A stretch of 64,000 nt of DNA from an uncultured Bacteroidota bacterium. GTDB taxonomy: Bacteria; Bacteroidota; Bacteroidia; Flavobacteriales; Flavobacteriaceae. A program made the position numbers and the translations under genes. The DNA lies in NCBI GenBank assembly GCA_902613595.1, contig CACMHY010000002.1, positions 62,001-126,000 of the forward strand. Direction: 5' to 3'. Under the pieces are notes generated by a model that did not search any database, had not been told where the DNA came from, and saw only the letters and a list, made by a program, of their open reading frames with translations. Positions 57,883 through 64,000 of the stretch are shown one piece after another (within the stretch, counting starts at the first letter, position 1; every line of letters begins with the position of its first letter).

Positions 57883-60800
57883 ATGAGACTGACCATAAAC
57901 TTATCATTACAGCTTTTTTTCTCATTATTTTTTGTTGTTGCCCAAGAACAAGAGACCTCTAATATTAACGATAAAAAACTTGGCAACCTTGAGATTAAAA
58001 ATTATACAAATAAGTTTTTAGAAAGGCCTGAGTCGGTATGGTCAGTTCTACGTTCTAGCAAGTCAAAAAAAGTATTTTATGGAACCTATGGAGGAGTTCT
58101 TGAATATGACGGGATAAATGTAGAGGCAATTGAAATTGATGGTCCAATAGAGAATGAAATTAGAACATCATTCACAAGGACATTATTGGAGGATCAAAAC
58201 AATAACATTTATGCTGCAGGAGGAGGGTTTTTTGGAAAAATTATAGATAGTGATTTTGGTGGATCTGAATATGTTTCATTGATGGGAAAAATTCCTGACA
58301 CGATTAATCCATATATTCAAGTTTTTTGGGGAGGTGTAAACAAAGAAGATGACATTTATTTGTATACACGGGATTTGATTTTTAAATATAATGGACAAGA
58401 GTTCGACAAAGTATGGAAGATTTCAGATAGAGAAGAAGGTGTTGATTCGTATGGGTCAATCCAAACAATATTAAAAGTTGATGAAAGAATTTTTGCAAGG
58501 ATTTGGGGGATAGGTCTTTTTGAACTGGTAAATGACAACTTCCAATTTGTAGAAAATTCCGAGCTTTTTTCATCAAATAGGATTGAATCAATGGTTTCTT
58601 TAGATGACAATAATATTGCTGTATTTAGCAGTAAACTGGGTGTTGTAATTTTTGATAGTCTAAATAATTTCAAACTACTTAATAAGCAACAGGTAAATAA
58701 ATGGTTAAAAGAGAAACTTATATACAATGTATCAGAAGTAAAAAAACTTTCCGATGGTAAAATACCCTTAATTTCCTTTGAGGGAGGAGTTTTGGTACTT
58801 AATAAAAATTTAGATGTGGTAGATTTAATCGACCAAAGCGATGGATTACTTTCCAATACTATAACCTCAATTCATGTAGATCAAAACGATGATATTTATT
58901 CTACTAGTCTTTTATCTGCCTCAAAAATTAAATTAAGTAATTCTGTAACTAGCTTTACAGAAGCAAATGGTATAAAAGGTCTTGTCCAGAAAATTAAAAA
59001 AATTGATAACAAGATTTATTTTAGTACTACAGAGGATATTTTCCGTGTTGACGAAAGTGCATCCTCACTAAATAATAATAAAATTGTAGACCTTCAAATA
59101 AATGATATTCCCAAAGACTTTATATCATTTGGGGGAAATATACTATCAGTAAATAATTTAAATTCCTTGCTTATTCGAAAGCAAAATAAAAGTTTAGTAT
59201 CAAATGATAGACTTTTAGAATCGCCTGTAAAAAGCTTATTGGATGATAAGCTCTTAATTATGGCACATCCTATTGATGGGATTATTTTCTTTAAGCTACT
59301 TAATGATAAAAGAATAATAAAAATAAATAGTAGTAGGATATTTAATAAACTAGGAGTTTTAGGTATCAAGGAAATTGCAAAAGGAGTTTTATTCGTTGAA
59401 ACCATAAATAATGAAGGTTCTTTTGTGTGTAGTTACGACAAAAAAGGTAATATAAAATCTAAAAGATTACTTATTCCGGATAATCAAAAGGTATTTAATT
59501 CTGAGAATTTTCCAAAAGAACAAAAATTTAATTCACAAATAGATCAAGAAGAATTTTTTATTCCATTAGAGTTAAATCTAATTAATACAGGTGCAGGATA
59601 TTTTATTTTTGATCAAAATCTCGATTTATACAGTTTTACTGACAAATTTGATTTAAATTCAACAGGACAGAATTTACTTTCAATTTTTGAGAAAAATCTA
59701 ACTAACTTTGACCCGATAACAAGACTTGCCAACATATCTGGAAGGCAACAGTTCACCTCTGTAAATCCCTTAACAAAAAATAATTGGTTTCTATCCAGTC
59801 AAGGTTTAATTGAAGTGAGTTTTAAAGAAGATGGTCAATATGATATCGTTGGAGAATACCCATATGGAGTTATCGATATAAATGAATTATCTGGAGCTAT
59901 TTTTGCAGATAATATTGGTTCTGAAAATCTTTTATGGTTAGGTTCTAAGGACTCAAAACTAATCAGCTATCTTCCAAATAAATATTTAAATGAGAAAAAA
60001 ATAAATGTAAAACCAATAATTAATAGTGCTGCTTTTAACGGTGAAATTATTAATTTATTTCAAAGTGATTTTTCCTATGATGATTCTAGAAATATAAAAA
60101 TAGATTTTAGTTTTCCTTCACTTGAAAAGGTTGAGGAAAATCTTTTCAGATATAGACTTCTTGGTTTAAATGAAAATTGGACAGATTGGTCTGCAACAAC
60201 TGAAGGTATTTTTACAAACCTTTATGAGGGGGATTATATTTTCGAAGTACAAGCTCTGGATGCAAACTTTAATGAAAGTGAAATCGAAAGCTTTTTATTT
60301 TCTATTAGTCCACCTTGGTATAGATCATATTTAGCCTACTTTATTTACGTTCTTGTTATAGCCGCATTAATATGGTTCTTTGGAAAATACCAAGCTAAGC
60401 GTTCGTTAGTTAAAGCTGAAAATGAAAGAAGAGAAAAGGATCTTGAAGAAGCAAAACAAATTCAGGAAAGTATGCTCCCTAAATCATACCCACAAATCGA
60501 TGGTTTAAGTATAACAGCTGGTCTTATAACTTCCACAGAGGTTGGAGGTGATTATTATGATTTTTTTGAAAGTACTGACAAAAGTAATAGTATTCATGTT
60601 ATTTGTGGAGATGCTACTGGTCACGGAACTGCTGCAGGAATGATGGTTTCAATAATTAAATCTGCGCTTAACGGGCTTCCAAATCTTCCAGTTAACGAAA
60701 TACTCGAGAGGTTAAATAATATTGTTAAGAAAATCAACTTGGGTAGATTAAGGATGAGTTTAAATGTAGCGAGAATAGACAAAAATGAAATCCAAATTAG

Positions 60801-61152
60801 TGCTGCTGCAATGCCACCAACTTATCTATTTAAGGCAAAATCAAATACTTGCGAAGAAATTATGATTGAAGGATTACCCTTAGGAGGCTTGAAAAACGAA
60901 AAATTTACAATGCTTAAAAAGAACTTTCAAAAAGGTGATGTATTAGTTATGCTTTCAGATGGATTACCTGAAGCTTCAAATGAAAAGAAGGAGATGTATG
61001 ATTATGATAGAATAAAAGAATTAATATCTAAGAATCATACAAAGGAGCCTAAAGAGATTAAAAAACAGTTGTTTGACAGCTTAAATCTTTGGATTAATGG
61101 TGGTGTACCAGACGATGACGTAACATTAGTTATTGTTAAAAAAGTGGCTTAA
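57883..61152 (+). CDS. Membrane sensor with beta-propeller, Y_Y_Y domain and SpoIIE phosphatase
   Basis: 1089 residues. A signal peptide ('LQLFFSLFFVVAQ') is followed by a long periplasmic region (about 40-705) with repeated strand pairs like those of HTCS propellers. A Y_Y_Y domain lies at about 715-805 ('YRLLGLNENWTDWS'), one membrane helix at 817-838, a linker helix ('EEAKQIQESMLP'), and a PP2C/SpoIIE domain at about 865-1088 with 'VGGDYYDFF', 'GDATGHGTAAGMM' and 'DDDVTLVI'. It should dephosphorylate a cytoplasmic Ser/Thr target, such as an anti-sigma antagonist, in response to an outside ligand. No partner kinase or STAS protein is next to it. It converges on the lipoprotein array 17 bases away. 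Confidence 0.88.
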   Translation: MRLTINLSLQLFFSLFFVVAQEQETSNINDKKLGNLEIKNYTNKFLERPESVWSVLRSSKSKKVFYGTYGGVLEYDGINVEAIEIDGPIENEIRTSFTRTLLEDQNNNIYAAGGGFFGKIIDSDFGGSEYVSLMGKIPDTINPYIQVFWGGVNKEDDIYLYTRDLIFKYNGQEFDKVWKISDREEGVDSYGSIQTILKVDERIFARIWGIGLFELVNDNFQFVENSELFSSNRIESMVSLDDNNIAVFSSKLGVVIFDSLNNFKLLNKQQVNKWLKEKLIYNVSEVKKLSDGKIPLISFEGGVLVLNKNLDVVDLIDQSDGLLSNTITSIHVDQNDDIYSTSLLSASKIKLSNSVTSFTEANGIKGLVQKIKKIDNKIYFSTTEDIFRVDESASSLNNNKIVDLQINDIPKDFISFGGNILSVNNLNSLLIRKQNKSLVSNDRLLESPVKSLLDDKLLIMAHPIDGIIFFKLLNDKRIIKINSSRIFNKLGVLGIKEIAKGVLFVETINNEGSFVCSYDKKGNIKSKRLLIPDNQKVFNSENFPKEQKFNSQIDQEEFFIPLELNLINTGAGYFIFDQNLDLYSFTDKFDLNSTGQNLLSIFEKNLTNFDPITRLANISGRQQFTSVNPLTKNNWFLSSQGLIEVSFKEDGQYDIVGEYPYGVIDINELSGAIFADNIGSENLLWLGSKDSKLISYLPNKYLNEKKINVKPIINSAAFNGEIINLFQSDFSYDDSRNIKIDFSFPSLEKVEENLFRYRLLGLNENWTDWSATTEGIFTNLYEGDYIFEVQALDANFNESEIESFLFSISPPWYRSYLAYFIYVLVIAALIWFFGKYQAKRSLVKAENERREKDLEEAKQIQESMLPKSYPQIDGLSITAGLITSTEVGGDYYDFFESTDKSNSIHVICGDATGHGTAAGMMVSIIKSALNGLPNLPVNEILERLNNIVKKINLGRLRMSLNVARIDKNEIQISAAAMPPTYLFKAKSNTCEEIMIEGLPLGGLKNEKFTMLKKNFQKGDVLVMLSDGLPEASNEKKEMYDYDRIKELISKNHTKEPKEIKKQLFDSLNLWINGGVPDDDVTLVIVKKVA

Positions 61153-61169: not shown

Positions 61170-61532
61170 TTAGTTAGTAGAATAAGCTGAAAATACTCTG
61201 TTGTTTGAAGATTTTTTAAAGTTTACTGTCCTAGTTTTTTTCTTCTTATCTGTATCTTTTTCTTTATTCGTAAAATTTGGGCTCTTTTTTTTTGAGGAAC
61301 CGTATCCGCTGTATTTATAATTACTTTCTAAGGAAGATTTAAGATTCTCTGAGTTTGCAGTTGAGTTTTTGTAGTTATTAATTCTCGCCTCTTTATTAAA
61401 AAGACCTTTACTTTTTTCAGTAATCTTTAAAAATGCATCTGCCCTATCAGGCTTTTTTTCTATACCATTACTGCAGCGTAAAAGCACCAATAGAATAAAG
61501 AATATACCTAAAAAGGGAAACAATTTATTCAT
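61170..61532 (-). CDS. Small Lys-rich lipoprotein, copy A (YSTN tail)
   Basis: This 120-residue protein has a signal ending Leu-Leu-Arg-Cys (Cys20; Arg at -1 is atypical), then a helical segment with 'LFNKEARINNYKNS', a 'YSGYGSS' motif (about 74-80), a Lys/Ser/Asn-rich disordered stretch and the exact end Ala-Tyr-Ser-Thr-Asn. It is a paralogue of the genes at 62538 and 63839. It starts 6 bases after the large lipoprotein copy A. No known family is recognised; a surface or periplasmic lipoprotein is inferred. Confidence 0.75.
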   Translation of the reverse strand: MNKLFPFLGIFFILLVLLRCSNGIEKKPDRADAFLKITEKSKGLFNKEARINNYKNSTANSENLKSSLESNYKYSGYGSSKKKSPNFTNKEKDTDKKKKTRTVNFKKSSNNRVFSAYSTN

Positions 61533-61538
61533 ATAGGA

Positions 61539-62522
61539 CTATTTAACCCGACTGTAGACTACACCTCTATAAATATTACCTAAGCTGTCTAATTGGGTTT
61601 GTAAAAACAAATCGTCGTTGTAAAAATCAAAATTTCTAGTTCCAGTATCTGCCCCGAAGGGGGATCCCTCCTGTCTACGCTCTCTTTTTGGGAAATATTG
61701 TCCTCCTGAAAAAAATTCACCGTACTCTTTGATGCTGTTTTCACCAATAAATCCATATTCGCCATATCCTCCGTGTCCCCACCATAAAATATCATCTGGG
61801 TCAGACATTCCTGTATTATCTACTTGATAAATAAATCTTCCGTTTAACCTAAAGTGTATATCGAGTTTCCCGTCGTTTGGAACACTAATCGTATCTATTG
61901 GAATATTATTTACATATTGAATTTCAAAAGTTCTTTTCCAGATGCCGTCAATTTTTGACGTATTTGGGGTCACATCAGGTAATCTTTTCCATAATTCTAT
62001 ATAGTTTTCTCCAAATTCAGTTTGTAAACTCTCACCCTCTTGATCATCGTTTACAAAGTCATATAATAGTAAATCATTATCAATGGAAAATTTAAACGGT
62101 GTGGGTCTTACATCCTTTTTATCATCAATTTCAACCACTCCGTCAATGCCGCCACCCCATAACCAACTAATTGCACCTCCAGTTGCGTGAGATATGGTTT
62201 CTGTAATTATATTATCATCGATTTTAAACTTTCCATACATTCCACTACCGCTTTTCCAATCATTCGATGGGTCGTACACATTGTTAATCCAAGCCACATT
62301 TCCTTTATGAAAAACTTTTATTTGTCTGTATTCAGGATCTGTGTCTTTTATATAAACCGTATCAACTGCCTTCCCTTTCACTGTTTGGATAGTTCCAATT
62401 CTTTCCCAAAAACCGTTCAACTTATCTTCTATAGTTAAAACTTTTTCTTGGGTTTTCTTAACTTCTCCACAACTAATAATTATAAGCAAAGAAGCTAAGA
62501 CTAAATGAAGTTTGCAATACAT
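61539..62522 (-). CDS. Two-domain large lipoprotein, copy A
   Basis: This 327-residue protein has a lipobox ending Ile-Ile-Ser-Cys (Cys18). Two related halves follow: one at about 35-175 starting 'LNGFWERIGTIQ', and one at about 190-325 starting 'IDGIWKRTFEIQ'. Each then has a Val/Ile-Asp-Thr, a strand block and a Gly-Tyr-Gly or Met-Tyr-Gly segment. The 'GxW' opening and strand pattern resemble lipocalin-like (calycin) domains, but this is a guess. It is paralogous to the gene at 62905. It lies 15 bases after small copy B and 6 bases before small copy A. Confidence 0.8.
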   Translation of the reverse strand: MYCKLHLVLASLLIIISCGEVKKTQEKVLTIEDKLNGFWERIGTIQTVKGKAVDTVYIKDTDPEYRQIKVFHKGNVAWINNVYDPSNDWKSGSGMYGKFKIDDNIITETISHATGGAISWLWGGGIDGVVEIDDKKDVRPTPFKFSIDNDLLLYDFVNDDQEGESLQTEFGENYIELWKRLPDVTPNTSKIDGIWKRTFEIQYVNNIPIDTISVPNDGKLDIHFRLNGRFIYQVDNTGMSDPDDILWWGHGGYGEYGFIGENSIKEYGEFFSGGQYFPKRERRQEGSPFGADTGTRNFDFYNDDLFLQTQLDSLGNIYRGVVYSRVK

Positions 62523-62537
62523 AATTAATAAAGATTT

Positions 62538-62903
62538 TTAGTTTGTTGAATATGTTGAATAAGTCTGAGGAGAATTATTTTGATAAGAGTAATTCACTTT
62601 CTTAGTTTTAGTATCCTTTTTGGATTTTTTGTTGTTGGAAGTATTACCTTTTTTGGATGGTGTTGATCCGTAACCATTGTACGAAACATTTTTGCTTAGT
62701 GATTCTTTTTTGTCAAGGTTTCTTACAATTGAGTTTTTGAACTTGTTTTTTCTATCCTCTTGAGTAAAAAGATTTTCATTTTTTTTATCGATTTTTGAGA
62801 ATGCTTCTAATGCATCTTCGCCAGAAGAACCCTTATTTTCAGTGCTGCACGAAAAGAGTCCCAAAACAAAAAAACCGATTAAAACATGATGTTTCCCAAA
62901 CAT
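62538..62903 (-). CDS. Small Lys-rich lipoprotein, copy B (YSTN tail)
   Basis: This 121-residue protein has a signal ending Leu-Phe-Ser-Cys (Cys19). A helical part 'AFSKIDKKNENLFTQEDR' parallels copy A ('AFLKITEKSKGLFNKEAR'), and 'YNGYGST' is followed by a Lys/Asn/Ser-rich stretch and the same end Thr-Tyr-Ser-Thr-Asn. It begins 1 base after the stop of large copy B, so translation of the pair is coupled. Function unknown. Confidence 0.75.
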   Translation of the reverse strand: MFGKHHVLIGFFVLGLFSCSTENKGSSGEDALEAFSKIDKKNENLFTQEDRKNKFKNSIVRNLDKKESLSKNVSYNGYGSTPSKKGNTSNNKKSKKDTKTKKVNYSYQNNSPQTYSTYSTN

Positions 62904-62904
62904 T

Positions 62905-63831
62905 TTATTTAACTCTTTTGTAAACTAAACCTCTTCCTGTCATCTCGTTGTTTGGATTATTTCCTGAAAACGATTTGTCAATTTGCAGAAAAAGATCGTC
63001 ATTGTAAAATGAAATTTCGTGAGTTGTTTTATTAGATTTAGGTTCTGATTCTGAAGTGAATGTACCGCTGCCCCATTCCCCATATTCATAAAGTTTATTG
63101 TTCTCCTCATCTAATACGAAAGTACCATATCCTCCATAACCACCATATCCTGGTTCGTCAGGATCAGCTAAACCGGTTTGGTCAACCTGATACATATATC
63201 TACCTCTATACATTACTTTCATATCTAAAATAACGTCACTTGGCAGAGACGTTGTATCAACCGGTATTTCGTTTACGTATGCAATTTCATAAACTCTTTT
63301 CCAAACTCCATCTATTCGCGACTTTGGTTCTAAATCTGGGAGTTTTTCAAAGAATTCAGCATATTCACTTTCAGGTGTATTTTTTTGTGAATAAATCCCA
63401 TCTCCTAAACTTATACTCATATTCCATGTTTGAGATTCTATGCTGTTTTCATCTTTATATTGTTTTAATCCAGCACCCATTAAACCTGTACCGTGCGACA
63501 TGAGTTCAGTAAGAGAGTCACGAGAGTAAATATTGAATTTTCCATATCCACCTGAGCCACCTTTCCATGGGGCCATCGAGTCTTTCCAAAAGTTGTTAAT
63601 CCACATAACTCTGTCATTTAAATAAACTTTAATCTGTTTATTATTTGGAGTTTGCGAATTCACGAATGCGAGAGTATCAACAGCAATTCCATTCATCAAT
63701 TGAATAGTACCGACTCTATTCCAAAAACCTAGAATATCTTCCTCATAGCTGTCTATGTTCTTATTTGTTTGGTTATTTCCACATGATACTAAGGAGATTA
63801 GTATTGAAACAAAAAGTATTTTTTTTAACAT
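62905..63831 (-). CDS. Two-domain large lipoprotein, copy B
   Basis: This is a 308-residue paralogue of the gene at 61539. The lipobox ends Leu-Val-Ser-Cys; the first half begins 'ILGFWNRVGTIQ' and the second 'IDGVWKRVYEIAYVN'. Blocks shared with copy A include 'QIKV', 'WINN', 'YGKF', 'RLPD', 'YQVD.TG', 'EYGE', 'FYNDDLFLQ' and the end Arg-Val-Lys. The first half is shorter than in copy A around the Gly-Trp-rich insert. The ATG at 63831 fits the signal; the frame is open to 63870 inside the upstream gene. It starts 7 bases after small copy C. Confidence 0.8.
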   Translation of the reverse strand: MLKKILFVSILISLVSCGNNQTNKNIDSYEEDILGFWNRVGTIQLMNGIAVDTLAFVNSQTPNNKQIKVYLNDRVMWINNFWKDSMAPWKGGSGGYGKFNIYSRDSLTELMSHGTGLMGAGLKQYKDENSIESQTWNMSISLGDGIYSQKNTPESEYAEFFEKLPDLEPKSRIDGVWKRVYEIAYVNEIPVDTTSLPSDVILDMKVMYRGRYMYQVDQTGLADPDEPGYGGYGGYGTFVLDEENNKLYEYGEWGSGTFTSESEPKSNKTTHEISFYNDDLFLQIDKSFSGNNPNNEMTGRGLVYKRVK

Positions 63832-63838
63832 AATATTT

Positions 63839-64000
63839 TTAATTTGTTGAGTAGGCTGAAAAACCTGCATTAGAGAATTTTGGCTTCGCTACTTTGTTTT
63901 TTTTAATTTTCTTATTTGATTCTTTCTTTTCTAAACTTTTTGCAGAACCATATCCACTGTAACCAGAGTTGGCAGTTAAAGATGCTTTTATTGATTCAGA
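63839..64000 (-). CDS. Small Lys-rich lipoprotein, copy C (N-terminus outside window)
   Basis: The last 53 codons of a third small paralogue are visible on the minus strand up to the window edge. They contain 'YSGYGSA', a Lys/Glu/Ser-rich middle and the end Phe-Ser-Ala-Tyr-Ser-Thr-Asn then TAA. The tail matches copies A and B. Its presence shows that the array continues to the right, presumably with another large copy. Confidence 0.75.
   Translation of the reverse strand, partial: SESIKASLTANSGYSGYGSAKSLEKKESNKKIKKNKVAKPKFSNAGFSAYSTN

Follow-up and report, generated by a model that had tools for sequence, protein, structure and literature searches.

Introduction

Several described systems resemble parts of the locus presented here. 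The SpoIIE, SpoIIAB/RsbW and SpoIIAA/RsbV proteins combine a phosphatase of the PP2C type with an HATPase kinase and a STAS protein, as does the present locus, which keeps the Ser context, while in Pycsar (PycC and PycTM) a class III cyclase gene likewise stands beside a gene of the PycTM family. The accessible part of a report on CapK and CapS (PMC13373217) describes a kinase of the same GHKL type, which governs a linked pathway by way of a STAS partner. Exported proteins with a lipocalin-like barrel, the fold that also recurs below, are known from Bacteroides (the 4gzv, 4i95, 4qrl and 4iab group; DUF4488, Lipocalin_4). The locus itself is a tandem array of alternating large and small lipoprotein genes at the right-hand end (positions 61170 to 64000) of a 64,000-nucleotide stretch of DNA from an uncultured member of the Flavobacteriaceae, referred to below as the window (G000:C2:62001-126000 of a 1.9 Mb assembly that is 85.3% complete). 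The array was found within a signalling cassette, and we propose, with about even confidence, that the large-small pairs serve, outside the cytoplasm, as the exchangeable input arm of a relay that works by partner switching and ends in a cyclic-nucleotide cyclase.

Such an arrangement would give a concrete and testable account of how cyclic-nucleotide signalling in Bacteroidota could come under the control of lipoproteins in the envelope. The output of the partner switch appears here to be a cyclase and not a sigma factor, and the neighbouring gene comes from a family known in anti-phage defence. Among the open-licence PMC papers listed by literature searches, mostly judged by title and the start of the abstract, the gene set was nowhere described.

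Results

An initial annotation of the window had described five alternating small and large frames on one strand, with gaps of 1 to 15 bases and a large-small pair as the repeat unit. Each of these frames was confirmed; they lie on the minus strand, and the gaps measured 6, 15, 1 and 7 bases. Because the contig continues in the assembly, the array could be traced past the window edge, where full-gene coordinates are those of locus L004, the contig continuation. The array does continue there and comprises three large-small pairs in all, which read L1-S1-L2-S2-L3-S3 along a single strand and bear out the proposed unit; with the start of L2 taken as 63831, the gaps in reading order are 6, 7, 1, 15 and 6 bases. 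L1 (315 amino acids, L004:6185-7132) lies beyond the window and precedes S1, which is cut by the window end (63839..64000; full gene L004:5840-6178, 112 amino acids). L2 (62905..63831), whose mature part was modelled, has about 308 amino acids from its likely start at 63831, the open reading frame itself opening at 63870. It is followed by S2 (121 amino acids, 62538..62903), L3 (327 amino acids in two lipocalin-like domains, 61539..62522) and S3 (120 amino acids, 61170..61532). The two other large proteins share 43% and 37% identity with L1, and the two other small ones share 41% and 43% with S1. The motif Y-x-G-Y-G-S and the identical end previously noted in the small proteins are common to all three, the end being YSTN. 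That both partners are lipoproteins also held in a survey of 20 small proteins from 11 genomes and of 21 large ones, with a lipobox in the small proteins and a lipobox Cys in 21 of the 21 large ones.

Downstream, a sensor phosphatase gene (57883..61152, plus strand) converges on the array at a distance of 17 bases. Its product of 1089 amino acids comprises, by domain search, an N-terminal propeller-like region (the Reg_prop match is weak, E 0.056), a Y_Y_Y domain, one predicted transmembrane segment (residues 814-836) and a SpoIIE-type PP2C domain (residues 902-1086). At the other end, a divergent intergenic region of 92 bases (L004:7133-7224) separates L1 from an operon of three plus-strand genes, namely an RsbW/SpoIIAB-like HATPase (L004:7225-7647), a STAS protein (L004:7640-7981) and a PAS-class III cyclase (L004:7983-9938), which is faced by a PycTM-like gene on the minus strand (L004:9939-10472). 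One scan of named genomes gave nine further loci, L010 to L018, and in all nine the array is flanked by the phosphatase and the HATPase-STAS-cyclase operon; the idea of a free-standing surface array was therefore dropped. The PycTM-like gene adjoins in seven of the nine, the exceptions being L015, which ends in the cyclase, and L018, the locus of genome G183, where the gene lies about 20 kb off; in genome G137 it is on another contig. Its product matches PycTM models of both Pfam (E 2e-9) and PADLOC (E 8e-21), and the cyclase matches PADLOC PycC models at E 7e-25.

Catalytic motifs were surveyed in 12 proteins each of STAS, kinase, cyclase and phosphatase. The STAS motif N-S-I-G, the kinase motif E-A-C-x-N and the phosphatase motif GDATGHG were each kept in 12 of 12. 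Stricter patterns missed some of L013, L018, L048, L049 and L050 owing to conservative changes, and the phosphatase motifs GGDYYD and SDG are also retained in the loci so missed. The partner-switching set is thus complete, with a PP2C phosphatase, an HATPase and a STAS protein with its Ser, all with intact catalytic motifs from which their activities are predicted. The Lys of the cyclase motif KxxGD was likewise kept in 12 of 12. This residue is typical of adenylate cyclases, which use ATP, and cyclic AMP is therefore the likeliest predicted product.

In a family-level survey of 299 genomes, the phosphatase was found in seven (E ≤ 1e-60) and the cyclase in the same seven at E ≤ 1e-160, or in ten at E ≤ 1e-40. 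A PycTM-like orthologue of at least 150 bits was present in exactly eight, i.e. those seven and G249, while the other 50 positives reached at most 69 bits. An order-level scan of 395 genomes gave the cyclase (E ≤ 1e-60) in one only, that of the window, but says little on absence since the sample is thin and spread. According to PMC6013644, the single cell from which L011 comes belongs to the NS5 marine group. An outer-membrane-type family (assigned by Pfam to DUF481 for the L049 and L053 members) was found near the PycTM-like or the phosphatase gene in G272, G099, G183 and G249 (L049:18796-19632, L050:3333-4109, L053:4944-5714 and L057:5349-6131), with 39-45% identity to the L053 copy; no such protein was seen beside the cassette of the window.

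Large and small genes are equally numerous in most loci, with three of each in the window and in L010, two of each in L011 to L015, and one of each in L016 and L017, while L018 has two large genes and one diverged small one. L013 and L015 run into contig ends inside the cassette, the latter stopping within the cyclase, and the two pairs of L013, on the same contig as G081, are oriented face to face. Genome G290 holds one pair and a degraded small remnant with internal stops (G290:C3:7177-7311) adjoining the phosphatase gene. The related G081 has an intact pair in that place, which shows that pairs have also been lost, and not only gained.

Of 12 distinct genomes in which a two-domain large gene was found, 11 have a small gene next to it, yet the pairing is not obligate. 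The expectation that a large gene never occurs without a small neighbour is clearly broken in G249, where the locus L057:1-6131 holds a PycTM-like gene, a DUF481-like protein and a diverged two-domain large gene with no small one. Many genomes with a large gene but no small neighbour had been named by the initial annotation as evidence against its reading; such a case was found once clearly, in G249, and once in part, in L018. In trees of the 21 large and 20 small proteins, classes 2 and 3 form clades on both sides (support 92/91 for the class 2 small proteins), as joint duplication of the pairs would predict. Class 1 fits this among the small proteins (98/96) and does not resolve among the large ones, and matching classes in the two trees could also arise by linkage alone.

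Three of the seven phosphatase-bearing genomes, G137, G272 and G099, have cassettes without pairs. Directly upstream of each phosphatase gene they instead carry a lipoprotein of about 525 amino acids with tetratricopeptide repeats (TPR), which occurs twice in tandem in G272; Pfam TPRs were found in both of those scanned. Since G137 is labelled as the same genus as the window, cassette type varies within a genus label. The five TPR lipoproteins are 35-61% identical to one another and fall into two subtypes, G272a/G290b (61%) and G137/G099/G272b (50-58%), with 35-38% identity across, and the sensors split alike. Among the five pair-type sensors, identity over residues 30-740 is 40-68%, and among the five TPR-type ones 30-56%, against 12-19% between types, whereas the PP2C domains remain 46-54% identical between the two. 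In our view, this tracking of lipoprotein type by sensor type is what most strongly suggests that the two proteins work together. In G183, a pair-type genome, the phosphatase falls with the pair type (100/100), whereas the cyclase clusters with those of TPR-type genomes (94/95, slightly under the starred level, in an unrooted tree) and shares 47-49% identity with each of the other cyclases, so that descent alone fits poorly.

No credible Pfam or NCBIfam match was found for the large protein, and 0 of 19 large proteins matched DUF4488 or Lipocalin_4 even at E ≤ 0.5; against solved structures, too, the sequence gave nothing credible (best E 0.29). Its two halves are homologous (hhalign probability 99.2, E 3e-19), which marks the protein as internally duplicated; neither this duplication nor the signalling cassette around the array had been noted in the initial annotation. 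An AlphaFold2 model of L2, built on 19 aligned large proteins, has a mean predicted local distance difference test score (pLDDT) of 84.9, a predicted template modelling score of 0.84 and two sets of strands. Foldseek placed this model at E ≤ 0.001 with three PDB entries, 4gzv, 4i95 and 4qrl, all named lipocalin or lipocalin-like, followed by 5byp and by 4iab, titled putative monosaccharide binding protein (probability 1.00, E 7e-4 to 2e-3). According to the model, the large protein consists of two fused lipocalin-like barrels, each domain an antiparallel beta-barrel of the calycin type, an assignment to be read with caution given template modelling scores to the target of just 0.52-0.65 and root mean square deviations of 5.1-6.5 Å. 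The family thus stays unrecognised, as first annotated, in that it has no credible Pfam or NCBIfam model, but its predicted fold is the Bacteroides lipocalin-like/DUF4488 barrel, and the notion of an entirely unknown family was dropped.

One-domain relatives of about 150-180 amino acids are common, 121 of the 299 family genomes having some match to the large protein, while the large gene stands inside the cassette in just four (G000, G081, G290 and G183), with the diverged two-domain form of G249 as a fifth genome. Among the other loci, frames were read in 26, the remainder being judged on match span and frame length. Aligned (15 of 27), the single-domain relatives match the large protein at hhalign probability 99.5 (E 1.7e-22) and 4gzv at E 0.017, and show weak Pfam matches to DUF4488 in one of 15 (E 4e-4) and to Lipocalin_4 in two of 15. 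One such relative, of 161 amino acids with a lipobox-like start, is encoded in the genome of the window itself (G000:C10:19304-19783, L009). A phage or plasmid origin of the array was rejected, as tblastn of L2 gave zero matches in both phage and plasmid collections.

The small protein, found at E ≤ 0.01 in the same four family genomes that have the large gene in the cassette, consists of a lipobox, a helical stretch, the motif Y.[GS]YG., a linker and a C-terminal [FY]S[AT]Y..N. Both motifs, in this loose form, are present in 20 of 20. The linker is basic throughout (20 of 20), with 9-14 Lys/Arg and 0-7 Asp/Glu in 27-43 residues, and the large proteins are acidic (21 of 21, net charge -5 to -21). 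AlphaFold2 gave a pLDDT of 62, with helices at 11-17 and 28-51 and the remainder as coil, and the small protein is accordingly modelled as a basic, largely disordered tail that is tethered to the membrane and carries the two conserved motifs. These resemble each other (aromatic, x, small, Tyr), and each may serve one barrel of the large protein. As no credible Pfam or NCBIfam match was obtained, the small protein is retained as an unknown family.

Between the window and its nearest relative, L010, divergence across the locus is concentrated in the lipoprotein genes. Identity at fourfold sites is 0.87-0.97 for the flanking genes, 0.87 for the cyclase and 0.79 for the phosphatase, while it is 0.51-0.61 for the large genes, 0.65 for S1, 0.95 for S2 and 0.88 for S3 (large versus core genes, p ~6e-17; large versus small genes, p ~4e-7). 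Such silent-site divergence in the large genes suggests recombination or old alleles and not only relaxed constraint. Versus L014, amino-acid identity is 91.1% for the phosphatase, 91.2% for the cyclase and 98.3% for the PycTM-like protein, and 47.2%, 59.5%, 73.9% and 52.5% for L1, S1, L2 and S2. Some genes past the PycTM-like gene have also diverged in the L011 and L014 comparisons (a 145 amino acid lipoprotein at 54%, a 525 amino acid gene at 64-65%), and the view of the lipoproteins as the sole variable part, which holds against L010, was given up for these two.

The 92-base intergenic region is 90-93% identical to that of L011, L014 and L015, where pooled fourfold sites over the cassette genes, lipoproteins included, reach 45-57%, and it is 76% identical to that of L012. 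Its conservation suggests shared control. Within it (L004:7133-7224) lie two facing 12-base boxes (ATTGRTTTATGA), exact in the window and four relatives; the box has 12 exact copies in the genome versus two for a reversed control pattern. Since 44 of 300 shuffles of the single sequence reach the same facing arrangement, which is not significant, we treat the boxes as a regulator site only in the sense of a conserved lead.

Discussion

The proposed relay builds on gene content, synteny, co-occurrence, intact motifs, barrel fold, the match of sensor and lipoprotein type, and fast lipoprotein divergence. From these we infer its binding events, direction of signal, ligand and messenger. The tail of the small protein, with its basic linker and C-terminal [FY]S[AT]YSTN, and the acidic two-barrel large protein would bind each other and/or an envelope ligand, and the propeller sensor of the SpoIIE phosphatase would read the resulting state of the lipoproteins. 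The RsbW-like kinase would phosphorylate the STAS protein on its conserved Ser and the phosphatase would remove the phosphate, upon which the freed STAS protein (or the freed kinase) would switch the class III cyclase, whose cyclic nucleotide may act via the PycTM-like membrane protein among others.

A number of observations weigh against this relay. Each cassette type is a single clade in the phosphatase tree, so that the switch of type may have been one event, and linkage alone could keep sensor and lipoprotein together, the genes being neighbours. G290 combines a pair-type cassette with a separate pair of TPR lipoprotein and phosphatase genes (L052). In G249, the two-domain large gene without a small one belongs to a genome in which an HATPase search was negative; also encoded there are two TPR-type lipoproteins of more remote kinship (19-25% identity) and the beginning of a propeller-like protein, truncated where the contig ends. 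Tight co-evolution of lipoprotein and sensor was dropped as an idea, as the sensor is 90.4% identical to that of L014 where L1 is at 47.2% and S1 at 59.5%, and no co-evolving sensor interface with either of these two is seen. The argument from charge is weak as well, since most exported Bacteroidota proteins may be acidic anyway.

The lipoproteins could also be output and not input, the cassette controlling the expression of envelope lipoproteins while the propeller sensor reads something else. The array would then sit where it does because it shares a divergent promoter region with the signalling operon, and the strong conservation of that region, from which the array is read, its facing boxes and a sensor that stays while lipoproteins diverge all agree with this. 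Neither a DNA-binding protein nor a sigma factor was seen among the cassette genes, however, the boxes fail the shuffling comparison, sensor type tracks lipoprotein type, and the TPR lipoproteins lie directly upstream of the phosphatase gene as expected of a co-transcribed input, which together make us consider the output role rather unlikely. Uptake is a still weaker candidate. The lipocalin-like fold and the title of 4iab would suit two-barrel lipoproteins that bind a hydrophobic ligand or a sugar for scavenging under regulation by the signalling genes, but the conserved cassette has no transporter or enzyme gene in the loci read and the small tail partner would be left unexplained, so that we rate scavenging as very improbable.

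Defence, in the form of a Pycsar-like abortive infection triggered at the envelope, would have the variable lipoproteins sense or bait phages, the relay activate the cyclase and the PycTM-like protein harm the membrane. The PADLOC and Pfam matches given above speak for it, as do the high divergence of the lipoprotein genes versus L010 and the control of immune pathways by a kinase/STAS pair, CapK/CapS, in the accessible part of PMC13373217. The PycC models probably match class III cyclases broadly, though, the synteny is vertical and conserved, and L2 gave no match in the phage or plasmid collections. The cyclase is moreover PAS-linked and carries its KxxGD Lys in all 12 cases, unlike the pyrimidine-type residues reported for PycC; the base-recognition residues given for three PycC enzymes in PMC11224242 are different. 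We therefore hold a defence role of this kind to be distinctly improbable. A bolder extension of the input-arm proposal, improbable too and put forward as speculation, is that variable lipoprotein "cartridges" of two barrels and a tail, the tail peptide perhaps offering one docking motif per barrel, plug into the propeller-SpoIIE sensor and, through partner switching that needs no sigma factor, control the cyclase and a PycTM-type effector. In abundant ocean flavobacteria the whole would then act as a switch for cell fate or defence that is thrown by events at the envelope.

Set beside the known systems, each part of the locus departs from its counterpart. In contrast to the Bacteroides lipocalin-like group, the large protein has two fused barrels, a small partner gene and a signalling cassette as its setting. 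Where CapS is a STAS-winged helix-turn-helix repressor and CapK responds to single-stranded DNA, again as far as the accessible part of PMC13373217 describes them, the cassette has a STAS-only protein and a membrane phosphatase as its input. Unlike that of Pycsar, the cyclase has a PAS domain, a predicted place under a partner switch and an adenylate-type Lys, with defence as no more than a candidate role. Finally, the cassette differs from the SpoIIE, RsbW and RsbV set in that its genes were not seen to include one for a sigma factor, that the STAS gene is accompanied by one for a class III cyclase, and that lipoproteins and a propeller sensor stand at the proposed input.

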